Virus record (IMG/VR): IMGVR_UViG_3300031576_000145
Location: 1 to 40,459 of that record
DNA: 40,459 bases
Strand: one strand, 5' to 3'
Source: a virus
Shown here: one piece after another, positions 1,630-21,208 of the stretch
Numbering within the stretch: position 1 is the first letter of the stretch
Layout: each line of letters begins with the position of its first letter
Notes under the pieces: generated by a model
The model's database searches: none
The model's input: only the letters and a program-made list of their open reading frames with translations
What the model was told of the DNA's origin: nothing
Made by a program: the position numbers and the translations under genes

Positions 1630-4191
1630 TCAGTCCTCCTCCGGGATGAAGGCGATCGCCGCCCGCACGCACCGCGGATGCCCGGTCAGATTCGTTTGGT
1701 ACTGCTCGACGGTCCAGACCTGCCCGTTCGCCTCCCGGTCCGTCTGGATGATCCCAACGACGCCATCGGGCGAGGGGGCGCCGTCGAGATGTCCCTGGGG
1801 GAGGCATCCGTCCCCATCGAGGATCTCGACGTGCGCGACCTCGGACTCCTTGTAGAACTCCGCCGCGGCATTCCCGTAGGCGTGCGCGGTCTCCGTCCGG
1901 GCGACCGTCTCCGCACGGCTGAACCCGAGCAGGTCCGTGAGGTCCGCCCGGAGACGCTGGGGCGACCATCCCTGCTCGACCGCGGCCGTCACCTTCGCGT
2001 TGATGTCCGCGCGCATCACGTCGTCGATTGCGAACCGGGCATCGGGATTTTCGACCAGCGTCCCGTCATCGAGTCTCCGCATCCCGACCATTTCCGCGGC
2101 CCGGTCCCGCGCGTATTGGATCGCGCGCTCCGGTGGGGTCCCGAGAACTCCGCCGATCGAAGCGGCGGCATCCTCAAGGCCGGCCGTCGTCGCCTCGAGG
2201 AGCGATGCCTCGATCTCCTCCACGATGCCCGAGAAATCCAGCGGGGGACCCTCTCCTCGCTGCTTCCGGACCGTCCCGGAAGTCGACCTGACGACGACCT
2301 CCGATTCGAACCCGAGCTGCTCCTGCGCCCAGGTGAGGATCCCCGGGAGAAGTCCACTGAGAGCCGCCTGGAGGACGGCCGTCAAGCGCTCCTGCGCGGC
2401 GAGCTGCCCCGCGGGCGATGGATCGGCCTTCGCGAGCGTCACGAGCCTCCTGGCCGCAGCCCGGAACAGGGCCCGGAGTGCCGGAAGCGATCGGTCCCGG
2501 GTGAGCCCGCGCTCGATCTCGAATCGGATGGATGCCGGGATGAGCCCGGAGCGGAACTTCCGGACGTTCCTGCCTTCGCGGGTACGCCGCTCCGCCATGC
2601 GGCTCCACTTCACTAGATCCCGAGCCGCGGCCTGCATCCGCATGGAAGGCCCCTTGGGGGCGCCCCCGGGGCCCGCCTGTGCCCCGAATTCCTCCTGGCT
2701 GGACCCATCCCGAGCCTGCCGAGGACCCTGGAGGGGCCCCGCAGGGCCCACCGAGGCAGCCTGTGCGGCCTTCTCCCGAGCCCGGCGCTTCTCCTCCCGC
2801 TCGGCGATCAGGTCTTCCACGAACACCACGGTTCCGACCGCCGTGACGATGACGGGGGTGTCGAGACCGACTGGCTTCTCCCCGACCTCCTGGAGCACGG
2901 AATCGAACGTCCGAAGGCCCCCATGCGCGTAGGCGATGTTCCGCTCGTACACGACCGTCGGATCCTCGATCTCGTCCCGGCCCCAGGCGAATTCGACCTC
3001 CGGGATCCCCCATGCCCGCTCGATCCACCGGTTGAGCACGTCCGCGATGAAGTTCGCAACCGGACGGATCCCGGACTCCAGCGTCGATTCCTCGAGCTGC
3101 CGCGAGGTTGCCCGGTTCATCATCTTGGCGATCGGGATCGGGGAGACCCCGAACGCCCAGCAGATCACCCGGTCGAGGTACTCCCGGAACTCGTATTTGA
3201 ATTCCCTGGTCTTCGTGGGGATGTACTTGCCCCCTCCGGGCACGAACCGCATCCCACCGACCCGGCGGTCGTCGCGGCCCATCATCAGGTCGTCCCAGAC
3301 CTTCTGGTACTCGCGCAGCCCCTTGGGCGTGATCCCCGCGGGCATCTCGTAGAGGCTGTCGGGGATGGTCCCGTGGGTGTAGTAGGAGAGGTCGTGGAGC
3401 GCCGCCCGGAGTGCGAGGTTGATCGTGATGACAACCCGCTCGGTGCACGACATGCCGAACGGCGCGTCGCTCCTGCGGTTCATGGGGAGATACCAGAGCT
3501 CGCGCATCCGGAAGGCCGTCTCCGGCAGGCCATTCACGACCTGCCAGTACGCGTCCTCCTCTCCGGTAGGCATCCGCCCACGGTCATCGACCAGCGGTCG
3601 GATGGTTGATCCATCCACGAGCTCCAAGCTCGCCGGGTCGCCCCGGAGGGTGAACCGGGGAAGCACGGATAGGGCGTCGGTCACGAGGATTTCGTCCACC
3701 GCGCGGTCCACCCACGCCCGGAAGTCCAGGTCGGCCGACGGATCCGGATACCGAAGGACGGCCCGGATCAGGGCTACCTCGTCGGCCAGCGTGTCCTTCG
3801 AGTCCTTGAAATCCTCCCGGACCCGGACCTGCCAGGACATCCCCCGGATCTGCCCCTTGATGTCCGCCATGCACGCCTGGACCGGCTCGAATCCGGAGAG
3901 GGCCCGGAGGTCGTCAAAGGCCGTGAGGTACTTCCCTCGCCACTGCCGGACGTTCGAGCTCAGGTTGTGGGAGATGTCCGCCCACAGGCTCCGGGGGAGA
4001 ATCCCCCGGGGCAGGATCGGCTCCCGCGGCTTCACCGGGGCGAGGGGTCTACGCCCGCCGGCGATGGTCCGCAGGATGTCCGGGGCCGCGGACGCCGAGA
4101 GCAGTCTCCCGTCGGGCCCCAGGATCGTCGGCATCAGGTCCGCGACCGACGTTCTCTTCGTCGGCGTGACCTTCGTCGCCGCGTCTCTCAC
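1630..4191 (-). CDS. Portal protein fused to MuF-type minor head protein (853 aa)
   Basis: The first half is a phage portal, the dodecameric DNA gate at the head vertex. It contains the typical portal core with RVICWAFGVSPIPIAKMMN followed by ATSRQLEES. A Gly/Pro/Gln-rich linker leads to a helical region and then a C-terminal Mu gpF/SPP1 gp7-like domain from about residue 758. That domain has the AETVARTETAHAYGNAA helix, a DGDGC motif and a terminal HPRCVRAA motif. The two functions are usually separate neighbouring genes; here they are one polypeptide. The start chosen is GTG 4191, because AGGAGGAG precedes it closely. The frame stays open further upstream to a TTG at 4260, and ATG 4134 is another option. 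With GTG 4191 it overlaps the end of the terminase gene by 143 nt. Confidence 0.88.
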   Translation of the reverse strand: MRDAATKVTPTKRTSVADLMPTILGPDGRLLSASAAPDILRTIAGGRRPLAPVKPREPILPRGILPRSLWADISHNLSSNVRQWRGKYLTAFDDLRALSGFEPVQACMADIKGQIRGMSWQVRVREDFKDSKDTLADEVALIRAVLRYPDPSADLDFRAWVDRAVDEILVTDALSVLPRFTLRGDPASLELVDGSTIRPLVDDRGRMPTGEEDAYWQVVNGLPETAFRMRELWYLPMNRRSDAPFGMSCTERVVITINLALRAALHDLSYYTHGTIPDSLYEMPAGITPKGLREYQKVWDDLMMGRDDRRVGGMRFVPGGGKYIPTKTREFKYEFREYLDRVICWAFGVSPIPIAKMMNRATSRQLEESTLESGIRPVANFIADVLNRWIERAWGIPEVEFAWGRDEIEDPTVVYERNIAYAHGGLRTFDSVLQEVGEKPVGLDTPVIVTAVGTVVFVEDLIAEREEKRRAREKAAQAASVGPAGPLQGPRQARDGSSQEEFGAQAGPGGAPKGPSMRMQAAARDLVKWSRMAERRTREGRNVRKFRSGLIPASIRFEIERGLTRDRSLPALRALFRAAARRLVTLAKADPSPAGQLAAQERLTAVLQAALSGLLPGILTWAQEQLGFESEVVVRSTSGTVRKQRGEGPPLDFSGIVEEIEASLLEATTAGLEDAAASIGGVLGTPPERAIQYARDRAAEMVGMRRLDDGTLVENPDARFAIDDVMRADINAKVTAAVEQGWSPQRLRADLTDLLGFSRAETVARTETAHAYGNAAAEFYKESEVAHVEILDGDGCLPQGHLDGAPSPDGVVGIIQTDREANGQVWTVEQYQTNLTGHPRCVRAAIAFIPEED

Positions 4192-6146: not shown

Positions 6147-7517
6147 TCACGCAGCCTTCTTCCGTTCCACGGTTCCGCCGGTGAGCTTCCGCCAGCGTTC
6201 CACGATCACGTCGCAGTAGGCTGGATCGATTTCCATGAGGCGCGCGCTGCGCTCCAACCGCTGGCAGGCAACGAGGGTCGAGCCGCTCCCTGCGAATAGA
6301 TCCAGGACGGTCTCGCCTTTGCGGCTCGAGTAGCAGATGGCCCTCTCGGCGAGCTCCACGGGTTTCTCCGTCAGGTGGATCATCTGCATGTGTGGGACCT
6401 TGGAGACCTCCCATACGTCGGGCACGTTCCTCGGTCCGAACCACCGATGCGCCGCGCCCTCCTTCCAGCCGTAGAAGCACAACTCGTGGGCACCCATGAA
6501 GTCCTTTCGGGTCAGGACCGGCTGATTCTTCACCCAGATGATCAGCAGCGAGAAGTAAAGCCCAGCCCCTTCGAGAGCGCCTGGATAGTTCTTGACGTTC
6601 GAGTAGCCTCCCCACAGGTAGAACGATCCACCAGGACGCAGCGCGGCTGCGATGTTCCCGAACCAGGAGCGAAGCCGAGCCCCGAACTCCTCCTCGGTCA
6701 GGAAATCGTTCTTGAGCGCCATGTCTTTGGGCCGCAGCTTCCGGCTCGTCGGCCGGACCTTGCTCGGCACGCGATGGAGGTCAAGGTTCTGATGGTGCTT
6801 CAGGTTCCCTCGTCGGCCAATCGGTCCACTGCCAGCCGCGAGCGCCGCGGCGATGGCGTTATTCGTCCGGGGTTCGACCGAGACGTTGTACGGGGGATCG
6901 GTGTTCACCAGATCGGCAACCTGACCGTCCATGAGCCGTGCCACGTGCTCGGCATCGCCGGCGTCACCGCAGAGTAGCCGATGGGGACCGAACAGGTACA
7001 GGTCCCCAGCCCGGGTTTCCGGTTTGTCCGGAGGCTCGGGAACCTCGTCGATGAGGCTGCCGGCCGAGGCGAGCTGCAACGCCGCGATGAGGGTGTCGAT
7101 CTCCTTCTCGGCGAACCCGGTAACGAGAAGGTCCGCCTTTTCCTTCTGCAGTTCGTCAACGAGGCGCGCGAGCATGAGCTCGTCCCATGCGCCTTCGCCG
7201 ATCCGGTTCAGCGCCAGGTTCAGGCGCTTCTCCGCAGTCTCGTCCAGATCCACCCACTCGACGGCCAGGCGCTCGATCCCGAGCTCCGATGCGGCCCGGA
7301 CGCGCTGGTGCCCGCCGACGATCCGATTGCTCCTCCGGTTGACAACGACGGTGCCCTTCGCACCGAACTCCTGGATGGACTGCTTGAGGGCCGCGAACTC
7401 GGCCTCTGGCAGGCTCCTGGGGTTGCCCTTCCAGAACATCCCCAGGAGTTGACTGACCGGGAGAGTGTCAACCTTGAGGGACCGATCGTTGGAGCGAACC
7501 GTCCGTCCCATCGCCAT
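6147..7517 (-). CDS. ParB-domain / beta-class DNA methyltransferase fusion (456 aa)
   Basis: The N-terminal third is a ParB/Srx-like domain (LKQSIQEFGAKGTVVVN, then GGHQRVRAA at about residues 68-76). The rest is an amino-methyltransferase with catalytic DPPY at 207-210 before the SAM-binding FAGSG at 408-412, which is the beta-class order. Such enzymes methylate adenine N6 or cytosine N4 in a specific DNA site; in phages they may protect the genome from host restriction. The frame is open to a TTG at 7571, but ATG 7517 (or 7511) is more credible. A promoter-like TTGACC-17-TACCCT lies just upstream. A terminator follows about 100 nt after the stop, so the gene could be its own unit. Confidence 0.87.
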   Translation of the reverse strand: MAMGRTVRSNDRSLKVDTLPVSQLLGMFWKGNPRSLPEAEFAALKQSIQEFGAKGTVVVNRRSNRIVGGHQRVRAASELGIERLAVEWVDLDETAEKRLNLALNRIGEGAWDELMLARLVDELQKEKADLLVTGFAEKEIDTLIAALQLASAGSLIDEVPEPPDKPETRAGDLYLFGPHRLLCGDAGDAEHVARLMDGQVADLVNTDPPYNVSVEPRTNNAIAAALAAGSGPIGRRGNLKHHQNLDLHRVPSKVRPTSRKLRPKDMALKNDFLTEEEFGARLRSWFGNIAAALRPGGSFYLWGGYSNVKNYPGALEGAGLYFSLLIIWVKNQPVLTRKDFMGAHELCFYGWKEGAAHRWFGPRNVPDVWEVSKVPHMQMIHLTEKPVELAERAICYSSRKGETVLDLFAGSGSTLVACQRLERSARLMEIDPAYCDVIVERWRKLTGGTVERKKAA

Positions 7518-11875: not shown

Positions 11876-13016
11876 GCGTTCCTCCTTCTCCTCCCCTCAG
11901 GGGAGGAAGAACCTTGTCCAGGTGGGCTTCGACTTCCGAAAGAGTTCTTCTGGTGTAGGTCGGATCCTCCGAAGTGTGTCTGGTCTCCTCCTCGAGGAGC
12001 ATCCTGCGAACCGAGACCCGTCGTTTCTCCCGGTACTCTGGAGTCTCCGGGGCTGCACGGCTCGTGGCAGCCGCGATCCGACCTATCTCTGCTCCCAGAA
12101 GGATCAGTCGCGGCCGGAGCACGTTTCCGGTGTGCTTCCAGAGATTGAGGATTGCCCGGCCTTCCTCCAGGCGGGCGTAACTCCGGAACCTCTCCAGATC
12201 GGCCCCGGTTCGAAGGATCAGATCGAGGTGGTCGAACCTGGTTGACCGATCATTCGCTCCCATGTGGTGGGGCGAGGAAGCACACCCGATGATCGCCATC
12301 AGCATATCCTCGTCCGTGTAGCCCTCCCTGCGACGAGCGTGGTACTTCGAGAGCCGCTTGGACTCCATCTGGAGAGCGCGTGGATAGCCCATCATGTCGC
12401 GCCAGAAACGGAAGACCAGCGGATACCCACCGGCGGGGGGGAGGGGGGGGTTAACTCCTGATCCAGGATCCTGATCCGGATCCGGATCCGGATCTGAACC
12501 ATCCTTAATGCCATGCGCCGCGATGCGCGGCGCTGCGCCGCCCTGCGCCGCGGTGCGCGGCGCTGCGCCGCCCTGCGCCGCGGTGCGCGGCGCTGCGCCG
12601 CGGTGCGCGGCGCTGCCCATATCTGAATCTTCAATAATGCCAATGTCCGGCGCGGCGGTGCGCGGCGCTGATCCGCCCTGTTCTCCTGCTGGCGCGGGGA
12701 ATTGCCCGACGCGCCCTCGGGTCCTCTGATATTTCCCCCAGGTCGGGAATGCACCGAACCTCTCCCCCGAGACCGTGTAGAGCTGGATGATCCCCTCGCG
12801 CTCGAGCTCGGCGAGGAGCGACACCATCTGCTCCTGGGGAAACTTCCCCTGGCGGCGCGGGTAACACGCGGCGATCGCGAGTTCGGGGTCGGCCTCGAAT
12901 CTCCCGTTGCAGTCGGCGGCACTCACGAGCCTCCAAAAGAGCCGCTCGCCGGCATCCGAGAGGGCATCGAGAGACCTGGACCGCCGAGCCTTCTCGTGGA
13001 TCAGACGCTTCGCCAT
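11793..13016 (-). CDS. Replication initiator-like protein with winged-helix N-terminus (407 aa)
   Basis: The N-terminal 115 residues form a winged-helix domain like that of phage replication initiation/replisome organiser proteins (LIHEKARRSRSLDAL, then LLAELEREGIIQLY and FPTWGKYQRTRG). The middle is a low-complexity linker of Ala/Pro/Arg/Gly repeats and alternating Asp-Pro, encoded by a 10-bp repeat array and a GATC cluster that resemble an origin. The C-terminal half is helical and carries YHARRREGYTDEDMLMAI, similar to the DnaD/phage O C-terminal helicase-loader region. Start ATG 13016 has AAAGGAGA upstream. The layout recalls lambda O, whose gene contains the origin. Confidence 0.75.
   Translation of the reverse strand: MAKRLIHEKARRSRSLDALSDAGERLFWRLVSAADCNGRFEADPELAIAACYPRRQGKFPQEQMVSLLAELEREGIIQLYTVSGERFGAFPTWGKYQRTRGRVGQFPAPAGEQGGSAPRTAAPDIGIIEDSDMGSAAHRGAAPRTAAQGGAAPRTAAQGGAAPRIAAHGIKDGSDPDPDPDQDPGSGVNPPLPPAGGYPLVFRFWRDMMGYPRALQMESKRLSKYHARRREGYTDEDMLMAIIGCASSPHHMGANDRSTRFDHLDLILRTGADLERFRSYARLEEGRAILNLWKHTGNVLRPRLILLGAEIGRIAAATSRAAPETPEYREKRRVSVRRMLLEEETRHTSEDPTYTRRTLSEVEAHLDKVLPPLRGGEGGTHATDSATEDTVRRDGGGGAPKAPANHR
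12460..12494. repeat. Cluster of six GATC sites (GGATCC-type short repeat)
   Basis: GATC at 12460, 12467, 12473, 12479, 12485 and 12491; the last four have an exact 6-bp period. It encodes the Asp-Pro run of the initiator linker. It adjoins a long G-run (12435-12450) on one side and the iteron array on the other. Confidence 0.85.
12514..12613. repeat. Ten tandem 10-bp iterons inside the initiator gene (putative origin)
   Basis: Units TGCGCCGCGA, TGCGCGGCGC, TGCGCCGCCC and TGCGCCGCGG repeat head to tail ten times, with an eleventh copy apart at 12659-12668. Ten bases equal one DNA turn and are not a codon multiple, so the repeat is kept at DNA level. Two similar AT-richer segments (12490-12513 and 12619-12645) flank the array and share ATCTGAA and TAATGCCA. 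This is a good origin-of-replication candidate. Confidence 0.7.
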
Positions 13017-13376: not shown

Positions 13377-14480
13377 ATGCAAGACGAGAAGGTAGCAGGT
13401 TCATCTGGTTTTGTCAACACCGATCCCGATCCAGAGGCCGAGATCTTCCGACCGGAAATCATCCAGGAGGAGCGAGCCATCCTGAAGCGACGGATCGCGG
13501 CGCCGCCGACGCTCTTTCAGCTGGCACTGCGCGGCGCCAACGACCCGGAAGAGATTGCCAGGCGGCTCGAAACTTTCCTCGAATCATTCGACAAGGTCTG
13601 GCTGCGGCGCATCCAGCCCGAGTGGATGGTCGAGTTCGAGGGCATGGAAGGCGAGAGGGTCTACCGGCCGACGTTCGCGGCGGCGCTCCAGGCAGCGAAG
13701 GTCTATGGGATCTCGGTGGAGTCGTTCCGGCCAATGCACGATCATGGCGTCCACCGGGGAAACCCGAACCCGCTCCGGACGGTGCTCGATTCCGGAGCCG
13801 TGATGTACGAGCTCTGGGCGACCGGTTTCGTGGGAATCACGGGGGAGGAGATCCCGCCCGTCCGCGCGGCGCGGCATTCGAACGAGAAGTTCATCGGCCG
13901 GGCGACGAAGAAGCGCGACCGGATCGTCGATGGAGAAACCGTCGAGGGCGAGCGCGTCGATCCGGACGCCGCGGAGATGGACCTGGTCTCGAGCGTCATC
14001 ACGCTCGCGATGAAGAAGGTCTACCTGATCGGGGCAGGCAAGATCCTCATCACCCGCAGCCAACTCGAATCGATGCTCGCCCCGGAGCAGAGGGAGAGCT
14101 GGTTCCGGCGGGTCCGGAAGGGAGCCGGCCACGGGAAGGCCCAGGACCGGGAGGAGGGTCGTTCGACCGATGCGGACCAGCCGGCGACGGAACCGATGGC
14201 CAAGCGCACCTGGGCCCTGTTCATCGAATGGGGCACGGCGCACAAGGTCGGGGAAGCCCGGACGAAGGCGTACCTGCGGGAGTGCCTCAAGGAGCTGGGC
14301 GTCGAAAACCTGACCGAGAAGGAAGTCGACATCGATGGCAAGAAGAAGAAGCTCCCAGGCCTGAGCCGAGCTCAGATGCGCACGCTCTGGGCTCGCGTCG
14401 AGTCCGAGACGAAGGCCGCGAAGGAAGGGCATCCCGTCGCCGGCGTCGCGGAAGGGAAGGTCGCCAGTGTCGCATCCTGA
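13377..14480 (+). CDS. First rightward-unit protein, unknown; possible DNA-annealing protein (367 aa)
   Basis: Soluble protein with an acidic N-terminus, a helical middle (WLRRIQPEWMVEF, then YRPTFAAALQAAKVYGISVE) and a basic C-terminus with RTWALFIEWGTAHKVGEAR and LTEKEVDIDGKKKK. No family is certain. Its position just before a Cas4/RecB-like nuclease is where phages often encode a single-strand annealing protein, so that is one possibility, not a call. Start ATG 13377 with AAGGAGG 7 nt upstream. It is the first gene after the operator and so probably among the earliest expressed. Confidence 0.75.
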   Translation: MQDEKVAGSSGFVNTDPDPEAEIFRPEIIQEERAILKRRIAAPPTLFQLALRGANDPEEIARRLETFLESFDKVWLRRIQPEWMVEFEGMEGERVYRPTFAAALQAAKVYGISVESFRPMHDHGVHRGNPNPLRTVLDSGAVMYELWATGFVGITGEEIPPVRAARHSNEKFIGRATKKRDRIVDGETVEGERVDPDAAEMDLVSSVITLAMKKVYLIGAGKILITRSQLESMLAPEQRESWFRRVRKGAGHGKAQDREEGRSTDADQPATEPMAKRTWALFIEWGTAHKVGEARTKAYLRECLKELGVENLTEKEVDIDGKKKKLPGLSRAQMRTLWARVESETKAAKEGHPVAGVAEGKVASVAS

Positions 14481-14703
14481 ACGGGAGCCGGAGGCAGTCC
14501 GTATCCTCCGCGAGCTCTCCGAATGGATGTACGAGCACAGGACTCCCGATCCAGAGGATCGGAGACCCGATCACGGCGTCACGGTCTCCTGCGGGGGGGA
14601 ATTCCTCCTCTGTCAGACCTGCGACGAGACCTGGCCGAAGGAAGGATTGGAGAAGGTTCTCCGAAGACTCCGGAAGGGAGGGGTCGCGAATGCCTCAACT
14701 TGA
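14467..14703 (+). CDS. Small protein with CxxC motif (78 aa)
   Basis: The N-terminal helix (AVRILRELSEWMYEHR) is followed by a Cys...CQTC segment (CGGEFLLCQTCDETWP), a likely small metal site, and a basic helix. Start GTG 14467 gives a 14-nt overlap with the preceding gene and has AAGG-type sequence upstream. It overlaps the next gene start by 14 nt. Function unknown. Confidence 0.65.
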   Translation: MSHPEREPEAVRILRELSEWMYEHRTPDPEDRRPDHGVTVSCGGEFLLCQTCDETWPKEGLEKVLRRLRKGGVANAST

Positions 14704-14896
14704 GCCCGACATCGAGGTCACCTCTCAGCACCCGCGGACGGAGCGGATCGTATTTCGGAAGCATCTGCTGCTCAGCATCTGGCCCGATGGGTCCCAGGAA
14801 GCGTGCTACCACCGGGCACTCCCTGCCGGGACCGTCATCTGGATCTGGCCCCCGAGGCCGAAGGAGAGTCCCGATGCGGGAACCCAGGAACACTGA
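14690..14896 (+). CDS. Small hypothetical protein (68 aa)
   Basis: Beta-rich short protein with one Cys and a Trp/Pro-rich C-terminal half (GTVIWIWPPRP). Start ATG 14690 with AAGGGAGGGG upstream, overlapping the preceding gene by 14 nt and the following nuclease gene by 23 nt. The overlaps suggest a translationally coupled string of genes. No family recognised. Confidence 0.6.
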   Translation: MPQLEPDIEVTSQHPRTERIVFRKHLLLSIWPDGSQEACYHRALPAGTVIWIWPPRPKESPDAGTQEH

Positions 14897-15893
14897 CCTC
14901 GCCGGCCTCCACCGATCGATCTGGCGGGACATCCAGCACGACATCGACTCCGATGTCTACATCCCCAGGAATCCCATCGCCTCCGGCCTCCACATCCCCT
15001 GTCCTCGGAAGCTCTACCACGACGTCGTGGACGCCGCAATCCGGCCGAAGTTCGAGGTCCAGGAGAAGTTCCGGGCGAACCGCGGCAAGAGCCGGGAACG
15101 ATGGTGGACGTCGTATCTGACGGAGCTCGGGGGCCGGGCGCGGCCTCGGTTCGAGTTCGTGGCCGCGCAGGAGCGGGTCACGATCCCGGATCGGCGGGGA
15201 AGGATCATCCTCTCGGGGAAGATCGATGGACGGATCGTGTTCGGCCAGCGCCGGAGGCGCGAGATCCCGGTCGAGTTCAAGGCCCCACACGACGGGACCT
15301 GGGAGAGCATCGAGACGCTCGCCGATCTCTCCCGCATGCCGTGGAGGCAGGGCGACGTGTGGCAGATGTGCGCGTACCTCTACGGGCTCTCCCGCGAGGG
15401 GAAGGACTATCCCCTGGGAGCGCTCATCTACGACGGCCCGGGGTTCCCCAAGATCCTCGAGGTAGAGCTCGAGCGGCACCTGGAGGGAATGGAGCGCTGG
15501 CTCGCGATGTCGGAGGCCGCGATGGACGCGATCGAGAAGCGAGAGCCGCCGCAAGGAGTCGATTCCGCGCCCGCCTGCACGATGTGCTGGGCCCGGGACC
15601 GCGTGTGCTTTCCGAAGCTCCAGCACCCGCCGCATGAGGTGATCACCGGGGAGGAGGAGGAACGCAACGTCGCGCGGCTCGTGGAACTCCGCGAAGTCGG
15701 CGAGGAATACCAGCGTCTCCAGGAGTGGGCGAAGGAGAGATTCCGGGGGGTCCGGGAGGCTCTCTGCGGGCCGCATCTGATCCGGGGAAGCTACTCCCCG
15801 CTCACGAGATACATGGTTCCGGACCGGATCCGGGATCGATTTCGAGTCGTGGACCAGGAGGGACAGTTCAGGTTGCAGATCGAGAAACTCTAA
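14874..15893 (+). CDS. Cas4/RecB-like PD-(D/E)XK nuclease with Fe-S cysteines (339 aa)
   Basis: Nuclease core: Asp118 in GKIDGR, Glu134-X-Lys136 in VEFKAP, and Gln164/Tyr168 in VWQMCAYLY, the order of RecB-family exonucleases. One N-terminal cysteine (Cys43 in IPCPRKLY) plus Cys235, Cys238 and Cys245 in CTMCWARDRVC reproduce the four-Cys iron-sulfur site of Cas4 and AddB. It probably degrades DNA ends and may serve phage recombination. Start ATG 14874 with AAGGAG 8 nt upstream; the same frame is open further upstream but without a ribosome site. No cas1, cas2 or CRISPR array is present, so it is not part of CRISPR adaptation here. Confidence 0.87.
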   Translation: MREPRNTDLAGLHRSIWRDIQHDIDSDVYIPRNPIASGLHIPCPRKLYHDVVDAAIRPKFEVQEKFRANRGKSRERWWTSYLTELGGRARPRFEFVAAQERVTIPDRRGRIILSGKIDGRIVFGQRRRREIPVEFKAPHDGTWESIETLADLSRMPWRQGDVWQMCAYLYGLSREGKDYPLGALIYDGPGFPKILEVELERHLEGMERWLAMSEAAMDAIEKREPPQGVDSAPACTMCWARDRVCFPKLQHPPHEVITGEEEERNVARLVELREVGEEYQRLQEWAKERFRGVREALCGPHLIRGSYSPLTRYMVPDRIRDRFRVVDQEGQFRLQIEKL

Positions 15894-15924
15894 ACAGGGA
15901 CCCACACGGGGCAGGAGGCATGCC

Positions 15925-16596
15925 ATGCAACGGAAGGGTCAGACTTTGCTTCGCGCGTTGATCAAGCCCAAGAATCTCATCCGGGTGGCGATTCCCATCC
16001 GGGGCACGGCGCCGTTCGTGCAGCATCGGTTCGGCGCGAAGGCGCAGGAGTTGATGCGGAAGAAGCAGGAGGAGGGAGAGGCGGCGAAGTCGAAAAGGGA
16101 TCGAGCTCCGAAGGATTTCGAGGCCCTGTACCAGGACGCCATGTATCGGACGAAGGACGGGTGGCGCGGGATGCCTTGTTCGGCATTCCGGAACGCCATG
16201 ATCTCCGCGTGCCGGATCTGCAGCGTCGTGATGACCAGGGCGAAACTCGCGATCTTCGTCGATGCCGACGGATACGATGAAGTGGAAGGAACACCACTCG
16301 TCCGGATCACGAAGGGCGAACCGCATATGCACATCGCGCCGGTGAGGAACGACGACGGGAGCGCCGATCTGCGTGCCCGCGGCATGTGGGATCCGGGCTG
16401 GGAGGCCGTCCCAAGGATCGTCTTTGATGGGGACATGTTCAGGTTCGATGACATTGCAAACCTTCTGGATCGGGTCGGCCATCAGGTAGGTATCGCAGAG
16501 GGCCGGCACGACTCTCCGAACAGCGCGGGGATGGGCTGGGGAACCTTCGAGATTCTCATGGACGAGGCGGCAGGGAAGAAGGCCGTGAATGAGTAA
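15925..16596 (+). CDS. Conserved phage protein (223 aa)
   Basis: Contains IRVAIPIRGTAPFVQHRFGAKA, then GMPCSAFRNAMISACR, then VGIAEGRHDSPNSAGMGWGTFEI. This pattern of blocks is familiar from phages of proteobacteria but has no assigned function. The Gly-rich C-terminal segment is notable and could contact nucleic acid, which is speculation. Start ATG 15925 with AGGAGG 6 nt upstream. It overlaps the next gene by 8 nt, so the pair is likely co-translated. Confidence 0.78.
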   Translation: MQRKGQTLLRALIKPKNLIRVAIPIRGTAPFVQHRFGAKAQELMRKKQEEGEAAKSKRDRAPKDFEALYQDAMYRTKDGWRGMPCSAFRNAMISACRICSVVMTRAKLAIFVDADGYDEVEGTPLVRITKGEPHMHIAPVRNDDGSADLRARGMWDPGWEAVPRIVFDGDMFRFDDIANLLDRVGHQVGIAEGRHDSPNSAGMGWGTFEILMDEAAGKKAVNE

Positions 16597-17137
16597 GGCT
16601 GCAATTTCCACCCGCCTTCGGATCGAGATTGAGACCAACCCCGGGACTCCGGCTCCGCTTCGGAGGATGCGGCCCGCGCAGGTTTACTCGGAACTCGAAA
16701 GGATCCGATCCGAGTCCGGCGGCGGCGTCCTGGAGGAGCGGGCGGTCTGGCTTGCCTCGCGGAAGAAAACGGATCTTCTCTATTCCTGCTTCACTTGGGA
16801 TGATCGGCAAGCCGCGGCGCAATGGCGAGATCAGGAAGCGCGGTGCATCGTGGAGGCCGTGGTGTTCGTGGATGCGAACGAAGGAACTTCCGTCCGGGCA
16901 TGGTCGCACGTCACGATCAAGGATCGAAGCGGCTACATCCTGACGACGGAGGCCGTGGCCGAGCCGGAGCTGAAGTCGCAGGTCATGCAGGAGATCCTCC
17001 GGTATCTCGCGGGCGCGAAGTCGAGGCTGCAGAGATTCCAGGGATTCGCGCGCGAGGTCTCGGCGGTGGATCGGGTGATCCGGATCGTCGCCAGGCGCGC
17101 GAAAAAACAGACGGACCCAGAAGGTCCCGCGACTTGA
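16589..17137 (+). CDS. Conserved phage protein (182 aa)
   Basis: Central block LLYSCFTWDDRQAAAQWRDQEARCIV resembles a family common in phage early regions (aromatic-Trp-Asp-Asp...Ala-Ala...Arg pattern). The C-terminal part is helical and basic. No catalytic motif is visible. Start ATG 16589 lies 8 nt inside the previous gene. Downstream comes the GGCNN pentamer array instead of another gene, so this is the last gene of the first rightward block. Confidence 0.75.
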   Translation: MSKAAISTRLRIEIETNPGTPAPLRRMRPAQVYSELERIRSESGGGVLEERAVWLASRKKTDLLYSCFTWDDRQAAAQWRDQEARCIVEAVVFVDANEGTSVRAWSHVTIKDRSGYILTTEAVAEPELKSQVMQEILRYLAGAKSRLQRFQGFAREVSAVDRVIRIVARRAKKQTDPEGPAT

Positions 17138-17378
17138 CGGGTTCGTCAGGGCATGGCGTGGCGTGTCTGGGCAGGCCCGGCGCGGAGAGGAGAGGATGGC
17201 GCGACGCGGCCAGGCCTGGCATGGCAGGCGCGGCTGGGCCGGACGTGGCCAAGTGAGGCATGGCACGGTAGGCGGGGCGGGGCTTGGCAGGCGAGGCAAG
17301 GCCCGGCGATGCGCGGCGAGGCTGGGCATGGCGTGGCAGGCGGGGTGGGCATCGAGCCCTGGCCTGCGAGGAGGATAG
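17138..17378. repeat. Degenerate GGCNN pentamer array
   Basis: From about 17150 to 17345 the DNA advances in 5-base steps, most starting with GGC, with a few one-base phase slips. The clearest stretch is 17290-17339: GGCGA, GGCAA, GGCCC, GGCGA, TGCGC, GGCGA, GGCTG, GGCAT, GGCGT, GGCAG. Other runs are at 17150-17164 and 17213-17227. Frames through it read as Trp/Arg/Gly/Ala repeats without a good ribosome site, so it is treated as non-coding. It sits between two rightward genes; its role is unknown. Confidence 0.8.
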
Positions 17379-17759
17379 ATGCCGAAATCGGGACAGGGGG
17401 AGCTCTTCTGCATGGAGGCGGAAGGAGTGGAGAGCTTCCCCGTCCCGACCTCCCCGCTCGCGCGCCGGGATCATCCGGCGACCTCGCACGAATCCGCGGC
17501 GGCGCTCCGAGGCTCCTGGGAGCTCGGTCGCCTCCAGGCGGAGGCCCTCCAGATGGTCCGGGAGCATCCCGGATCGACCACCCACGAGCTCGCCGCATTC
17601 TGCGGGCTCCACGACGAACGGATCCTCGGTCGGCGTCTCTCGGAACTCGGCGCCCCCGGCGTGGGCCTGGTAGTCGTGAACGGATCCAGGATCGATCCCA
17701 TGACGGGGCGCCGCTGCCAGACCTGGGCCCCGGCCCGTGGGGGACCCTCCGGCCCGTAG
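17379..17759 (+). CDS. Winged-helix DNA-binding protein (126 aa)
   Basis: After a short linker with DHPATSHESAAAL, a helix-turn-helix follows (AEALQMVREHPGSTTHELAAFCG, LHDERILGRRLSELGAPG). A wing with VVVNGSRIDPMTGRRCQTWA comes next. This ends like the winged-helix proteins widely found in phages (RxxTGRxCxxW). It probably binds DNA and may be a regulator of the unit. Start ATG 17379 with GAGGAGG 4 nt upstream, directly behind the pentamer array. Confidence 0.78.
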   Translation: MPKSGQGELFCMEAEGVESFPVPTSPLARRDHPATSHESAAALRGSWELGRLQAEALQMVREHPGSTTHELAAFCGLHDERILGRRLSELGAPGVGLVVVNGSRIDPMTGRRCQTWAPARGGPSGP

Positions 17760-17849
17760 ACCCCCCTGGGTGTCCCCCCGCGCCTGGTTCGACATGGGGC
17801 CGGTGGCAGGATACCTCGTAAACCATAGCAAACTTTAGAGATAGAGTCC

Positions 17850-17878
17850 TTGACTTCCGTGGTACATGGGGGTACATT
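17850..17878 (+). promoter_or_regulatory. Secondary rightward promoter
   Basis: TTGACT (17850-17855), an exact 17-bp spacer and TACATT (17873-17878). GGTACAT occurs twice, 10 bp apart (17861 and 17871), inside the promoter and could be an operator. It lies in the 142-bp gap before the gene at 17902. Confidence 0.65.
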
Positions 17879-17901
17879 GTCCCACAGAAGGAGGACGGAA
17901 C

Positions 17902-18198
17902 ATGGAAACCAGGATGCAGTATTTCGGATACGCGCTCAAGGCCGGAAGGTTGGAGCTGCTTCTCGTGACCAGGACCGGCGGGCGGCAGACCGGACAGGAG
18001 TGGACCGGAGAGCGGTTCCCGAAGGTCGACGACGCATACGAGGGGACCGGCCGGAGGAACCTGGCCATCGAGCGCTTCCGTCGGGATCGGTTCGATGGGA
18101 TGCGCCATCGGTCCGGGTGGTGCGTCCCTGGTATCGACCTCCACGATCGGTGCGTGGACGCGTCCTGCGACTGCGTCTGTCACGACGGAAGTAGGTGA
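17902..18198 (+). CDS. Hypothetical Cys-rich-tail protein (98 aa)
   Basis: N-terminal beta-rich segment (MQYFGYALKAGRLELLLVTRTG), then an Arg-rich middle and a C-terminal tail with five cysteines and a Cys-Val-Cys-His end, perhaps a metal site. Start ATG 17902 with AAGGAGG 7 nt upstream. Its leader is identical over 19 bases to that of the gene at 18673. It is the first gene after the secondary promoter. Confidence 0.65.
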   Translation: METRMQYFGYALKAGRLELLLVTRTGGRQTGQEWTGERFPKVDDAYEGTGRRNLAIERFRRDRFDGMRHRSGWCVPGIDLHDRCVDASCDCVCHDGSR

Positions 18199-18201
18199 GC
18201 C

Positions 18202-18252
18202 CGGGGGCGGCCCCCGCCCCCGTAAACCACATCCCCGGGTGGCAACACCCGG
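18202..18252 (+). other. Two leader hairpins before the 49-aa gene
   Basis: CGGGGGCGG/CCGCCCCCG (18202-18210, 18214-18222) with a 3-nt loop, and CCGGGTG/CACCCGG (18235-18241, 18246-18252) with a GCAA tetraloop. The second ends 7 nt before the AAGGAGG site. Neither has a T-tract. Confidence 0.6.
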
Positions 18253-18273
18253 TCTGTAGAAGGAGGTTGAACG

Positions 18274-18423
18274 ATGACCACCTACACGCTGCGGTACGAG
18301 ACCAGGTGCAACGATTGTGAGCGAGTCTGGAAGAGCGACGGCACGATTGAGGTCTGTTACTACTGTGACGGCAACAACTTGACGCACACTAAGCTGCCGA
18401 AGAACGGGAAGGAGAAACCATGA
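18274..18423 (+). CDS. Tiny zinc-ribbon protein (49 aa)
   Basis: Two CxxC pairs, CNDC (near residue 12) and CYYC (near residue 28), form a complete small zinc ribbon, followed by a basic tail (KLPKNGKEKP). Start ATG 18274 has a near-perfect AAGGAGGTTG site. Its stop overlaps the next start as ATGA. Likely a nucleic-acid- or protein-binding adaptor; the target is unknown. Confidence 0.75.
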   Translation: MTTYTLRYETRCNDCERVWKSDGTIEVCYYCDGNNLTHTKLPKNGKEKP

Positions 18424-18632
18424 CCCTTTCGACCTTGAACCTACCGCTCTCCGACAAACTGGAAACCAGCCCGGCGATTCTCCAGGCGATCCGCGAACTC
18501 GTCGGCGAGGACGAGGCGGCGATAATCCGGGAGTGGCAGGACCCCACGGACGACGCGGCGATAATCCGCCGCGCCCGCGAGATCGAACCGGACGAGCCGC
18601 TCTACTGGGGAGCCTCGGGACGGGTCGCGTAG
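18420..18632 (+). CDS. Small hypothetical protein (70 aa)
   Basis: Acidic helical protein with a repeated Ala-Ile-Ile-Arg element (EAAIIREWQDPTDDAAIIRRAREIEP), suggesting an internal duplication of a short helix. Start ATG 18420, AAGGAG 6 nt upstream, coupled by ATGA to the zinc-ribbon gene. No family recognised. Confidence 0.65.
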   Translation: MTLSTLNLPLSDKLETSPAILQAIRELVGEDEAAIIREWQDPTDDAAIIRRAREIEPDEPLYWGASGRVA

Positions 18633-18672
18633 GCAGCCGAAACTGGCCGGTAGGCCCGAAGGAGGACGGAAC

Positions 18673-18999
18673 ATGGCAAGCCGAAAGGATCGGATGGACT
18701 ACGAGGTGACCCGGACCCGGAACGACATGGCGGAGACCGTGAGGACCCTGCAGGCCCGGATCGACTCATTGCGGGACACGCTGCACCGCGAGAGCGTTCG
18801 CTGCTCCGAGCTGATCGCGTCGATGCAGCAGGGTGGTGACGAGTGGTGGGCAGGATTCCTGAAGGAACTGACCACCGGGGTTCCCTCGCTCGGGATCATC
18901 CAGGGCCAGGGAGCGGACGTCGATCGGCTCTGCATCCTGCTGAACGAGCGGTTCCACACCGCGCAGACGGTGAGTCGGATCACCCGTGAGGAGTCGTAA
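18673..18999 (+). CDS. Hypothetical coiled-coil protein (108 aa)
   Basis: The N-terminal half is a long amphipathic helix (DYEVTRTRNDMAETVRTLQARIDSL), followed by a Gly-containing turn and a second helical part. Start ATG 18673, AAGGAGG 7 nt upstream, with the same 19-base leader as the gene at 17902. Function unknown; it lies between the small acidic gene and the RAMA-type gene. Confidence 0.65.
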   Translation: MASRKDRMDYEVTRTRNDMAETVRTLQARIDSLRDTLHRESVRCSELIASMQQGGDEWWAGFLKELTTGVPSLGIIQGQGADVDRLCILLNERFHTAQTVSRITREES

Positions 19000-19029
19000 C
19001 CGAGCGGGCCACGCCCGCGGGAGGTGAAC

Positions 19030-19620
19030 GTGATCAATGAACAACCGGCCGATGTCGGCATGCCGACCGAGAAGAAACCGCAGGTCCCGGCAGGGTTCCA
19101 GACCCTGATGGCCCTCGCGGCCGACGCCCCGAAGATCGAGGAGAGGTTCCAGGCGGCCGTCGCCGCCGAGCAGATGGCCCGGGTGCTCGGACGGGACGAC
19201 CTCTGGAGGAAGGCAAACATCCGGGCCTGTCTGAATGCCCTCGGCGCTCCGGAATACGCCGAGCGGCGGAGGGAGGATCTCATGGCGCTCAAGAAACTCA
19301 AGGACCGGAAGGGGAAGGAGAAGGCGGCGAGGCCGCCGCGCACGAAGGCGGAGCGGCCTCCGCTGGCGGAGCGGAAGCCGCGGACTCCCGGAACCCCGGA
19401 CCCCCGGATCCCGGGTGTCGGCTCGACCCTGCACGCGAGCTACAGGGGGAAGGACTACACGGCGAAGGTCGTCGCGGACGGGATCGAGTACCACGGCAAG
19501 GTCTACGGGACGCTCTCGGCCGCCGGCCGGGTGATCACGGGCACGAAGACGCTGAACGGGTTCCTGTTCTTCGGCCTCAACCCGAAGAAGGCCCCCGCGA
19601 AGCCGGCGACCGCCAGCTGA
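19030..19620 (+). CDS. RAMA/DUF2924-like domain protein (196 aa)
   Basis: The N-terminal half is helical (FQTLMALAADAPKIEERF; LWRKANIRACLNALG), then a basic Pro-rich linker. The C-terminal 55 residues, with GSTLHASYRGKDYTAKV and VYGTLSAAGRVITG, match the RAMA/DUF2924 pattern. That domain is known from proteins linked to adenine methylases and restriction systems. It may read methylated DNA; a partner could be the ParB-methyltransferase at 6147. Start GTG 19030 with GGGAGG 5 nt upstream; GTG 19024 is an alternative. Confidence 0.72.
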   Translation: MINEQPADVGMPTEKKPQVPAGFQTLMALAADAPKIEERFQAAVAAEQMARVLGRDDLWRKANIRACLNALGAPEYAERRREDLMALKKLKDRKGKEKAARPPRTKAERPPLAERKPRTPGTPDPRIPGVGSTLHASYRGKDYTAKVVADGIEYHGKVYGTLSAAGRVITGTKTLNGFLFFGLNPKKAPAKPATAS

Positions 19621-19631
19621 CGGGAGGGACT

Positions 19632-19658
19632 GCCGGGGCCCCGCCAGAGGGCCCCGGC
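19632..19658 (+). other. 10-bp perfect hairpin before the AAA+ gene
   Basis: GCCGGGGCCC (19632-19641) pairs with GGGCCCCGGC (19649-19658), loop CGCCAGA. No T-tract. It lies 12 nt after the RAMA-type stop, in the leader of the AAA+ gene. Confidence 0.65.
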
Positions 19659-19702
19659 GCATCCCGGGGTGGCCCCCAGCGCCCCGGAAAGAGGGAGGGA
19701 CG

Positions 19703-21208
19703 ATGAGGACTTGGATCGACAGACTTAAGGCCGCCAGGGGGGTTTCTACGCCCCTCCTGGCGGTGGAAACCGTGGACCCCGGGGCGACGGCGCGGGCCAT
19801 CGGGGAGGCCTCGGAGGCCCCGGTCGTGTGGTGGGACTGCGCCGCGGGACCCCGTCCGGTGAACGACGCGGGCAGGGAGGTCTGCTCGCAGACGTGGTCG
19901 GACCCGTATCAGGCCCTGAACCTGGTCGAGGTTCTGAAGGCGGCCGAGCGCATGCCAGTGCGGGCGATGCTGCTCATCGCGAACGCCCACCGGTTCCTCG
20001 ACGAGACCGCGGTTCTCCAGGCGGTGGGGAATCTCCGGGACCCGTTCCGGAACGGGCGGAGCCTGATCCTCCTGGTGGTCCCGGGCGCGCGCCTTCCCCA
20101 GGAGCTCGCGCAGGACGTCCTGGTCCTCGAGCGACCCCTGCCAGGGGCGGAGGAACTCCGGCCGATCGTGGACGAGATCGTGAATGCGGCGGCGGAGCAG
20201 ATCCAGGGCTTCAAGCCCCCCCCGGAGAAGGCTCGGGCGCGTGCCGCGGAGGCCCTGGTGGGCCTCGGGGAGTTCGCCGCGGAGAGCGCGCTCTCGCTCT
20301 CGATCAACGACGGAGGCCTTGCCCCGGAGAATCTCTGGGCGAGGAAGCGGGGGATGATCAACCAGACCCCAGGCCTCACGCTGGTCCCGGCCGGCGCGGA
20401 GACATTCTCCGGGATGGGTGGCCTCCAGGCGATCCGGGAGTTCGGGAGCCGACTTTTCCAGTCCGAGAACCCCCCGCGCCTGATCGTGTGGGTCGACGAG
20501 CTGGAGAAGGCCATCGCGGGCGCCGGCGGGGGAGGCCTCGGGGACTCGAGCGGGACGTCCCAGGATCAGCTTGGGGTGCTCCTCCGCTACCAGGAGGAGA
20601 ACGGCTGGTCCGGGATTCTCCTCGTCGGGCCCCCTGGGTCGGGGAAGAGCATGGTCGCGAAGGCCCTCGGGGCGACCCACGCGACGCCGACCCTGCTCCT
20701 GGACCTCGGGGCCATGAAGGGTTCCCTCGTCGGCCAGTCCGAGCAGAGGATCCGCGCGGCGATGCGGGTGATCCAGGCTCTGGCGGGTTCCGAGGCGCTC
20801 TTCGTTGCGACCTGCAACCGGCTCGAGGCGATCCCCCCGGAGCTCCGCCGCCGCTACCGGTACGGGATCTGGTTCACGGACCTCCCGGACGCCGACGAGC
20901 GTGAGGCGATCTGGAAGATCCACCTGGAGGCTGCTGGCATCGGGCCGGCCGAATTGAGGCCTGGGGACCCAATCTGGACCGGGGCCGAGATCCGGAACTG
21001 CTGTGAGCTGGCGAAGCGCCTGGACATCTCGCCACAGGAGGCCGCGGCGTACATCGTGCCCGTGTCGCAGTCGGATCCGGAGGGGATCGAGCGCCTGCGG
21101 AAGGCCGCGGACGGGCGGTTCCTATCCGCTTCCCGGACGGGGCCCTACCGGGCCCAGGCCGGCGCGCAGGGGGCTCGCGGGGCCCGGAGGTTCGGCGATG
21201 CCGTGTGA
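19703..21208 (+). CDS. AAA+ ATPase with Walker B ahead of Walker A (Ycf46-like, apparently permuted), 501 aa
   Basis: The N-terminal 170 residues resemble the front domain of Ycf46-type ATPases (LLAVETVDPG near residue 19). The AAA+ core is in an unusual order. The Walker B-like block IVWVDE (261-266), with the DSSGTSQDQLGVLL helix, comes first. Walker A GPPGSGKS (309-316) and VGQSEQRIR (343-351) follow. Sensor 1 VATCN (368-372) and PPELRRRY come after that. In normal Ycf46/FtsH-like proteins Walker B lies between GESE and sensor 1. All elements are present, so the enzyme is probably active. The C-terminus has WTGAEIRNCC and FLSASRTGPY. Start ATG 19703 with AGGGAGGG upstream. It is followed by DUF1257- and DUF2997-like genes. 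Likely a remodelling ATPase; target unknown. Confidence 0.87.
   Translation: MRTWIDRLKAARGVSTPLLAVETVDPGATARAIGEASEAPVVWWDCAAGPRPVNDAGREVCSQTWSDPYQALNLVEVLKAAERMPVRAMLLIANAHRFLDETAVLQAVGNLRDPFRNGRSLILLVVPGARLPQELAQDVLVLERPLPGAEELRPIVDEIVNAAAEQIQGFKPPPEKARARAAEALVGLGEFAAESALSLSINDGGLAPENLWARKRGMINQTPGLTLVPAGAETFSGMGGLQAIREFGSRLFQSENPPRLIVWVDELEKAIAGAGGGGLGDSSGTSQDQLGVLLRYQEENGWSGILLVGPPGSGKSMVAKALGATHATPTLLLDLGAMKGSLVGQSEQRIRAAMRVIQALAGSEALFVATCNRLEAIPPELRRRYRYGIWFTDLPDADEREAIWKIHLEAAGIGPAELRPGDPIWTGAEIRNCCELAKRLDISPQEAAAYIVPVSQSDPEGIERLRKAADGRFLSASRTGPYRAQAGAQGARGARRFGDAV

Follow-up and report, generated by a model that had tools for sequence, protein, structure and literature searches.

A very probable VIPR locus with a GGY/NN pentamer array in an uncultivated phage record

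The stretch analyzed here, IMG/VR virus record IMGVR_UViG_3300031576_000145 (40,459 bases in full length, hereafter the window), belongs to an uncultivated phage with a G+C content of 66% and contains a tract of five-base units between two genes. It is very probable that this tract is part of a VIPR (Viral Interference Programmable Repeat) locus, comprising, on a single strand, vipr (15925-16596), a probable vap gene (16589-17137) and a vrRNA tract (17140-17348). VIPR was described in a 2026 preprint as a system used between phages that consists of the RAMP-like protein Vipr, a vap gene and vrRNAs, each made up of 9-16 GGY/NN repeats whose NN bases determine the DNA target, with one base skipped (PMC13142463). 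The window agrees with the published definition in its genes, its repeat and the type of genome.

Composition of the array

Within positions 17138-17378 we counted 19 pairs of GGC five bases apart. In 2000 shuffles that preserved dinucleotides the mean was 1.42 +/- 1.17, and the highest count was 7. The base identity at lag 5 was 0.576, compared with 0.343 +/- 0.028 in the shuffles. An earlier sequence-only reading of this DNA had claimed a five-base period and proposed autocorrelation against shuffled sequence as a check; the claim was borne out on both measures. Apart from windows over the array, no 241-base window on either strand held more than three GGC pairs at this distance, and the longest GGY chain in the rest of the window had 4 units. 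The periodic signal is therefore real and unique to the array in the window.

The tract from 17140 to 17348 could be parsed exactly into 43 units, of which 34 have GGC or GGT at their start. Positions 1-3 of the unit were conserved (entropy 0.36, 0.60 and 0.70 bits), whereas positions 4 and 5 were almost random (1.76 and 2.00 bits). The periodicity of GGC noted earlier thus stands, but the pattern is better described as GGY followed by a hypervariable NN. Six units were only four bases long (GGCA, GGAT, GGCA, GGTA, GGCA and GGCA). Since each of them shifts the register, GGC is not kept on two faces of the helix, as had been supposed. The array is intergenic, with the preceding gene ending at 17137 and the following one beginning at 17379, and G strongly outnumbers C in 17138-17378 (121 vs 60). 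The features of the locus, all on the plus strand, are as follows.

17140..17348, +, vrRNA-like GGY/NN array of 43 units (34 GGY, six one base short); shuffle statistics and unit parse
17140..17173, +, module M0, 7 units, GGCA end; unit parse, boundaries inferred from short units
17174..17226, +, module M1/M2, 11 units including an irregular GGAT at 17194-17197 and degenerate units, GGCA end; unit parse
17227..17270, +, module M3, 9 units, GGTA end; unit parse
17271..17289, +, module M4, short, 4 units, GGCA end; unit parse
17290..17338, +, module M5, 10 units (9 GGY), GGCA end, cleanest candidate guide; unit parse
17339..17378, +, two final units, then GCAGGC...GCCTGC as a possible 3' hairpin and, for the next gene, a Shine-Dalgarno-like GGAGG
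15925..16596, +, vipr gene, 223-aa RAMP-family protein, phrog_4652; profile match and predicted fold
16589..17137, +, probable vap gene, 182 aa, phrog_15946 family; overlaps the vipr stop and ends 2 bases before the array

The reading frames of vipr and vap are intact. Published vrRNAs are described as having 9-16 repeats and then an invariable 3' tail; in the window there are 11, 9 and 10 units in M1/M2, M3 and M5 and 7 and 4 in M0 and M4, and no conserved tail was recognized. The possible 3' hairpin was no more stable than in shuffled sequence (z -0.60; 57 of 200 shuffles as stable).

The Vipr family and its association with arrays

When IMG/VR was scanned non-exhaustively for runs of six GGCNN units, at least 120 stretches were returned, and the element is accordingly common. 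Together with matches in named phages this answers the earlier suggestion to look for similar arrays in other phages. All 16 dinucleotides were present as NN among the GGC-to-GGC units of the related arrays. The named phages with array similarity were mostly Mycobacterium phages of the genus Cheoctovirus, which we take to be cluster F. The array also matched four Helicobacter prophage records, in each case across 23 bases only.

The genes near 120 array loci and in the window were compared by all-against-all blastp with array codons masked. The dominant family had 70 members from 70 loci, the window being represented by 15925-16596. Its median distance to the array was 33 bp, with 69 of the 70 members lying within 700 bp and 67 of the 70 on the array strand. 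A profile of this family matched at 83 of the 120 array loci, on the same strand in 80 of the 83 and within 1 kb in 80 of the 83, although most of these matches arise by construction because the profile was derived from those same loci. Split by repeat type, the profile matched at 81 of 107 NN-diverse arrays (five or more different NN), vs 2 of 13 simple repeats. A search through the complete records of the 26 negatives with diverse NN (the 11 simple-repeat negatives were left out) found a match in 3 of them, which brings the total to 84 of 107.

All 68 aligned family members matched phrog_4652, which is annotated as 'unknown function' in PHROGs; our survey ties it to Vipr. Against the PDB the family profile gave one match, chain 36pp_D, 'SUSP1 Vipr protein' (E 1.5e-46). 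A profile built from the 18 members most similar to the window gene found the same chain with E 1.7e-12, the next entry having E 0.98, and a profile from 39 members less than 26% identical to the window gene recovered that gene with E 3.3e-19. By these profile comparisons the product of 15925-16596 is homologous to known Viprs.

The AlphaFold model of this protein (pLDDT 90.7, pTM 0.85) gave 50 listed Foldseek matches, all of them to CRISPR type III or VII complexes, the best being a Csm complex chain (E 1.6e-6). VIA-align superposed the model on the Csm chains 9g9f_D and 8do6_E with Z 11.4 over 154-158 residues (rmsd 3.9 over 154 aligned residues for 9g9f_D). The predicted structure is thus a RAMP fold resembling Csm and Cas7. 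SUSP1 Vipr (36pp) was absent from the fold-search matches, the structure library ending on 8 April 2026.

The association was also followed in the reverse direction. Ten loci (8 from IMG/VR and 2 from genome contigs) were selected solely for their similarity to the window Vipr, and five named phage records were added, drawn from the 6 non-Mycobacterium records among 33 matching after exclusion of a duplicate UmaThurman record. GGYNN arrays were found at 14 of these 15 Vipr loci, and all 18 arrays were on the Vipr strand. Furthermore, in each of five cluster F phages the gene after the array matched the Vipr profile, with E at most 1.4e-59, and the gene following it matched the second, vap-like family (E at most 1.3e-35). 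Protein matches to Vipr included 27 Mycobacterium and 5 Gordonia records. In the Gordonia phages ODay and Ecliptus, Vipr and the array are located between the tail assembly chaperone and tape measure genes, and in Pipp and UmaThurman they are near the integrase. Related phages of this group (loci L141-L144) do not share the same guides.

The strand bias was examined by placing the arrays with at least eight GGC relative to genes predicted by a simple gene caller. Of 207 such arrays, 120 were intergenic, 65 lay within a called frame on the same strand and 22 within an opposed frame. Because the arrays are poor in stops, many of the placements inside frames are probably due to over-extended frames. 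Of the 120 intergenic arrays, both neighbours were co-directional with the array in 82 cases, both were opposed to it in 5, 18 were mixed and 15 had a single called neighbour. GGC is strongly biased to the sense strand (82 vs 5).

The second gene, 16589-17137, belongs to a family that was found by blastp at 17 loci including the window (median 11 bp from the array) and by profile at 27 of the 120 array loci, always alongside Vipr. Judged by its position it is probably a vap (Vipr-accessory) gene. Foldseek returned nothing significant for the model of its product (pLDDT 91.1), the best match being an archaeal DNA-binding protein with E 0.24. The VIA-align rows span the C-terminal helices only, and the modelled likeness to DNA-binding proteins is very weak.

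Several arrays differed in layout or surroundings. At loci L003, L092, L030 and L103 the arrays alternate several times with a short conserved spacer, which in L003 appears hairpin-like by eye; unlike the continuous arrays, these are probably another VIPR array layout. A motif resembling a tRNA T-arm (GGTTCGACTCC) follows the arrays of L029 (about 6931-7168) and L006 (about 3722-3766). ARAGORN detected no tRNA beside these two arrays, and the motif could represent a tRNA-mimic tail for processing. The window itself contains, at 12510-12616, a tandem repeat with 10- and 30-base periods (TGCGCCGCGC type, score 172) that is not of the GGYNN kind and adjoins a GGATCC-like repeat at 12456-12494.

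Punctuation and turnover of modules

By analogy with experiments on SUSP1 and P. fulva (PMC13142463), the array would be transcribed with the operon. Every five nucleotides of the RNA would be covered by one Vipr subunit, which would hold GGY and expose NN. The exposed pairs would read the DNA target as NNxNNxNN, and target binding would keep a competing phage or satellite from being transcribed. The one-base-short GGCA units may act as commas between consecutive guides, in which case the tract would hold several guides, with M5 as the cleanest.

In relatives, the one-base-short units that break long arrays were GGCA in 257 of 341 cases. The spacing of successive short units (n=235) had a median of 10 units, and 80% of the spacings were 7-15 units, vs 35% when an equal number of breaks was placed randomly (one draw per array). 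Unbroken arrays (n=150) were mostly 8-16 units long. As the parser penalizes breaks, small offsets in these figures may be misread.

Close relatives differed by whole modules. Among the cluster F arrays, exactly one module of 59 nt separates Mattes from ByChance, and the array of Donkeykong corresponds to that of Brocalys plus two whole modules (113 nt), besides a one-unit change. The array of Quico was more divergent. If such tracts are vrRNAs like those described, these changes would be guides gained or lost entire.

The short units and the gain and loss of whole modules suggest a punctuated, cassette-like guide array. We tentatively propose, with somewhat less than even confidence, that these phages carry long guide arrays with neither spacers nor repeats, in which a short unit, in most cases GGCA, marks where a guide stops and the following one begins, and whole guides turn over between close relatives. 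This would be a CRISPR-like guide memory within a continuous pentamer tract. If so, phages possess some means to write or swap modules. Should the GGCA comma be real, guides could be read from the raw sequence and their turnover traced among sequenced relatives, and guide acquisition by phages would thus become a testable question.

Neither one-base-short comma units that divide long arrays into modules nor the turnover of whole modules among mycobacteriophages was found in the main text of PMC13142463, which also contains no words starting with Mycobacter, Gordonia or GGCA. Staggered arrays, in which vrRNAs overlap, are mentioned there as the subject of a supplementary figure; going by that mention, they may be the layout seen in the window. 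A literature search with narrow terms turned up no account of such repeats in cluster F mycobacteriophages. The present data place VIPR in well-studied laboratory phages with genetics and hosts in hand, and the window adds a member from an uncultivated phage record of high G+C content.

Counter-evidence, alternatives and known systems

Several observations weigh against assigning the window to VIPR. Nine of the 43 units lack GGY and GGAT is among the four-base units, signs that the array may be in partial decay. Its 3' end has no clear conserved tail. Searched by itself with phmmer, the window Vipr hit zero PDB chains, and the link to SUSP1 requires the profile. The association also has exceptions in both directions. 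No Vipr profile match was present in the whole available record of 23 of the 107 NN-diverse arrays; these are either orphan guide arrays or have Viprs too divergent for the profile. They comprise L017, L058 and 21 more loci, and their records include two of 105 and 108 kb. Conversely, locus L135 has a Vipr, with no array in the stretch examined (only 90 bases upstream of the match), and L132 and L136 carry short arrays only.

Furthermore, a target of the window guides was not established. Used as an NNxNN pattern with 18 fixed bases against IMG/VR, M5 gave a single 18/18 match, codon-aligned in a 120-aa gene matching phrog_9046 in locus L128 (G+C 0.66), and its shuffled-order control gave 0. 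However, an 18-base module of the Gordonia phage UmaThurman gave 2 matches, codon-aligned in unrelated genes, both of which failed at the next pair. As 18-base matches and codon alignment evidently arise by chance, we do not claim L128 as a target. M3 alone (16 bases) gave 4 matches, the G+C of the matching records being mixed; lengthened by one base, which put it in a questionable register, M3 gave 1, and allowing it up to 3 mismatches in the entire L128 record gave 0. One module from the cluster F mycobacteriophages (m3) gave 0 matches with 20 bases in viral contigs and with 22 bases in genome contigs. No self-target was found within the window, where the best M5 match was 13/18 at every skip length. 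Finally, 410 unique modules searched against 2.3 Mb showed no excess over shuffled modules at any skip length.

The degenerate units, the short modules M0 and M4 and the missing targets would all be expected of a VIPR array that is decaying or dead and whose guides no longer work. We regard this as unlikely, although it has some weight, since the vipr and vap frames are intact, the units of M3 and M5 follow the pattern fairly well and degenerate units also occur in other Vipr-adjacent arrays (L036, L118 and L048). A different proposal, raised by the sequence-only reading, is a binding array at the DNA level, such as an operator or replication iterons, for example for the winged-helix product of 17379-17759. 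Iterons and operators typically consist of sites in tandem, and the array lies directly upstream of this gene. The near-random NN, the one-base slips and the strong sense-strand bias nevertheless speak against it. Additionally, the protein family linked to arrays is a RAMP rather than a winged-helix protein and is encoded two genes upstream (15925-16596), and blastp, run before masking, showed no relative of 17379-17759 at the array loci. A role of this kind is therefore highly improbable.

That the element might act as RNA had been suggested as well, and an RNA-level element is indeed favoured, though as a guide rather than as a folded structure. A structured or G-rich RNA (a two-layer quadruplex, R-loop former or antiterminator), in which the fold and not the NN matters, would account for the excess of G and for the observation that the 241-base RNA folds better than 200 of 200 shuffles (z -2.67). 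It would leave unexplained both the association with a RAMP family and the turnover of modules as whole units, and a search of 16000-18500 against Rfam, with E allowed up to 1, found nothing; we consider it very improbable. Long stop-free frames traverse the array on both strands, as they might in a coding repeat. The module indels of 59 and 113 nt in relatives are, however, not multiples of three, which argues against coding. Of the refuting conditions named in the earlier reading, neither the lack of a signal against shuffles nor translation across the array was borne out. A chance low-complexity tract is at odds with the number of GGC pairs relative to shuffles and with the scarcity of Vipr near few-NN GGCNN repeats. 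Coding repeat or chance tract, such an origin is extremely unlikely.

The VIPR assignment may finally be set beside known systems. RNA sites of TRAP are (G/U)AG triplets with short, uninformative spacers, and TRAP itself is an unrelated ring protein. The array is like TRAP sites in having a triplet and a two-base spacer in RNA with a period of five; unlike TRAP, its neighbour is a RAMP. A binding site for a TRAP-like ring was dropped, the neighbouring family being a RAMP by profile and fold.

Class 1 CRISPR-Cas systems share the Cas7/Csm3 backbone, to whose Csm chains the predicted fold of the window Vipr aligns. Unlike them, the window has no CRISPR repeat-spacer array, and target reading by VIPR is gapped and not contiguous (PMC13142463). 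Tandem Repeats Finder listed no repeat-spacer array beside the locus, spaced repeats not having been searched separately. Among the nine genes tested in 13377-21208 Pfam revealed no confident Cas family; the best was Cas4 with E 0.033, a weak match below the cut-off to the nuclease family PF01930 in the upstream neighbour 14523-15893.

VIPR has been proposed as a forerunner of CRISPR, with Vipr as the ancestral CRISPR-RAMP protein, and the vrRNAs of SUSP1 are isolated, about 100 nt long and end in a conserved tail (PMC13142463). Unlike SUSP1, the window has one continuous array cut by one-base-short units. It resembles VIPR in its GGY/NN tandem repeats, in the RAMP-family gene about 540 bp away, in the second small gene, in the phage genome and in the profile match to SUSP1 Vipr.
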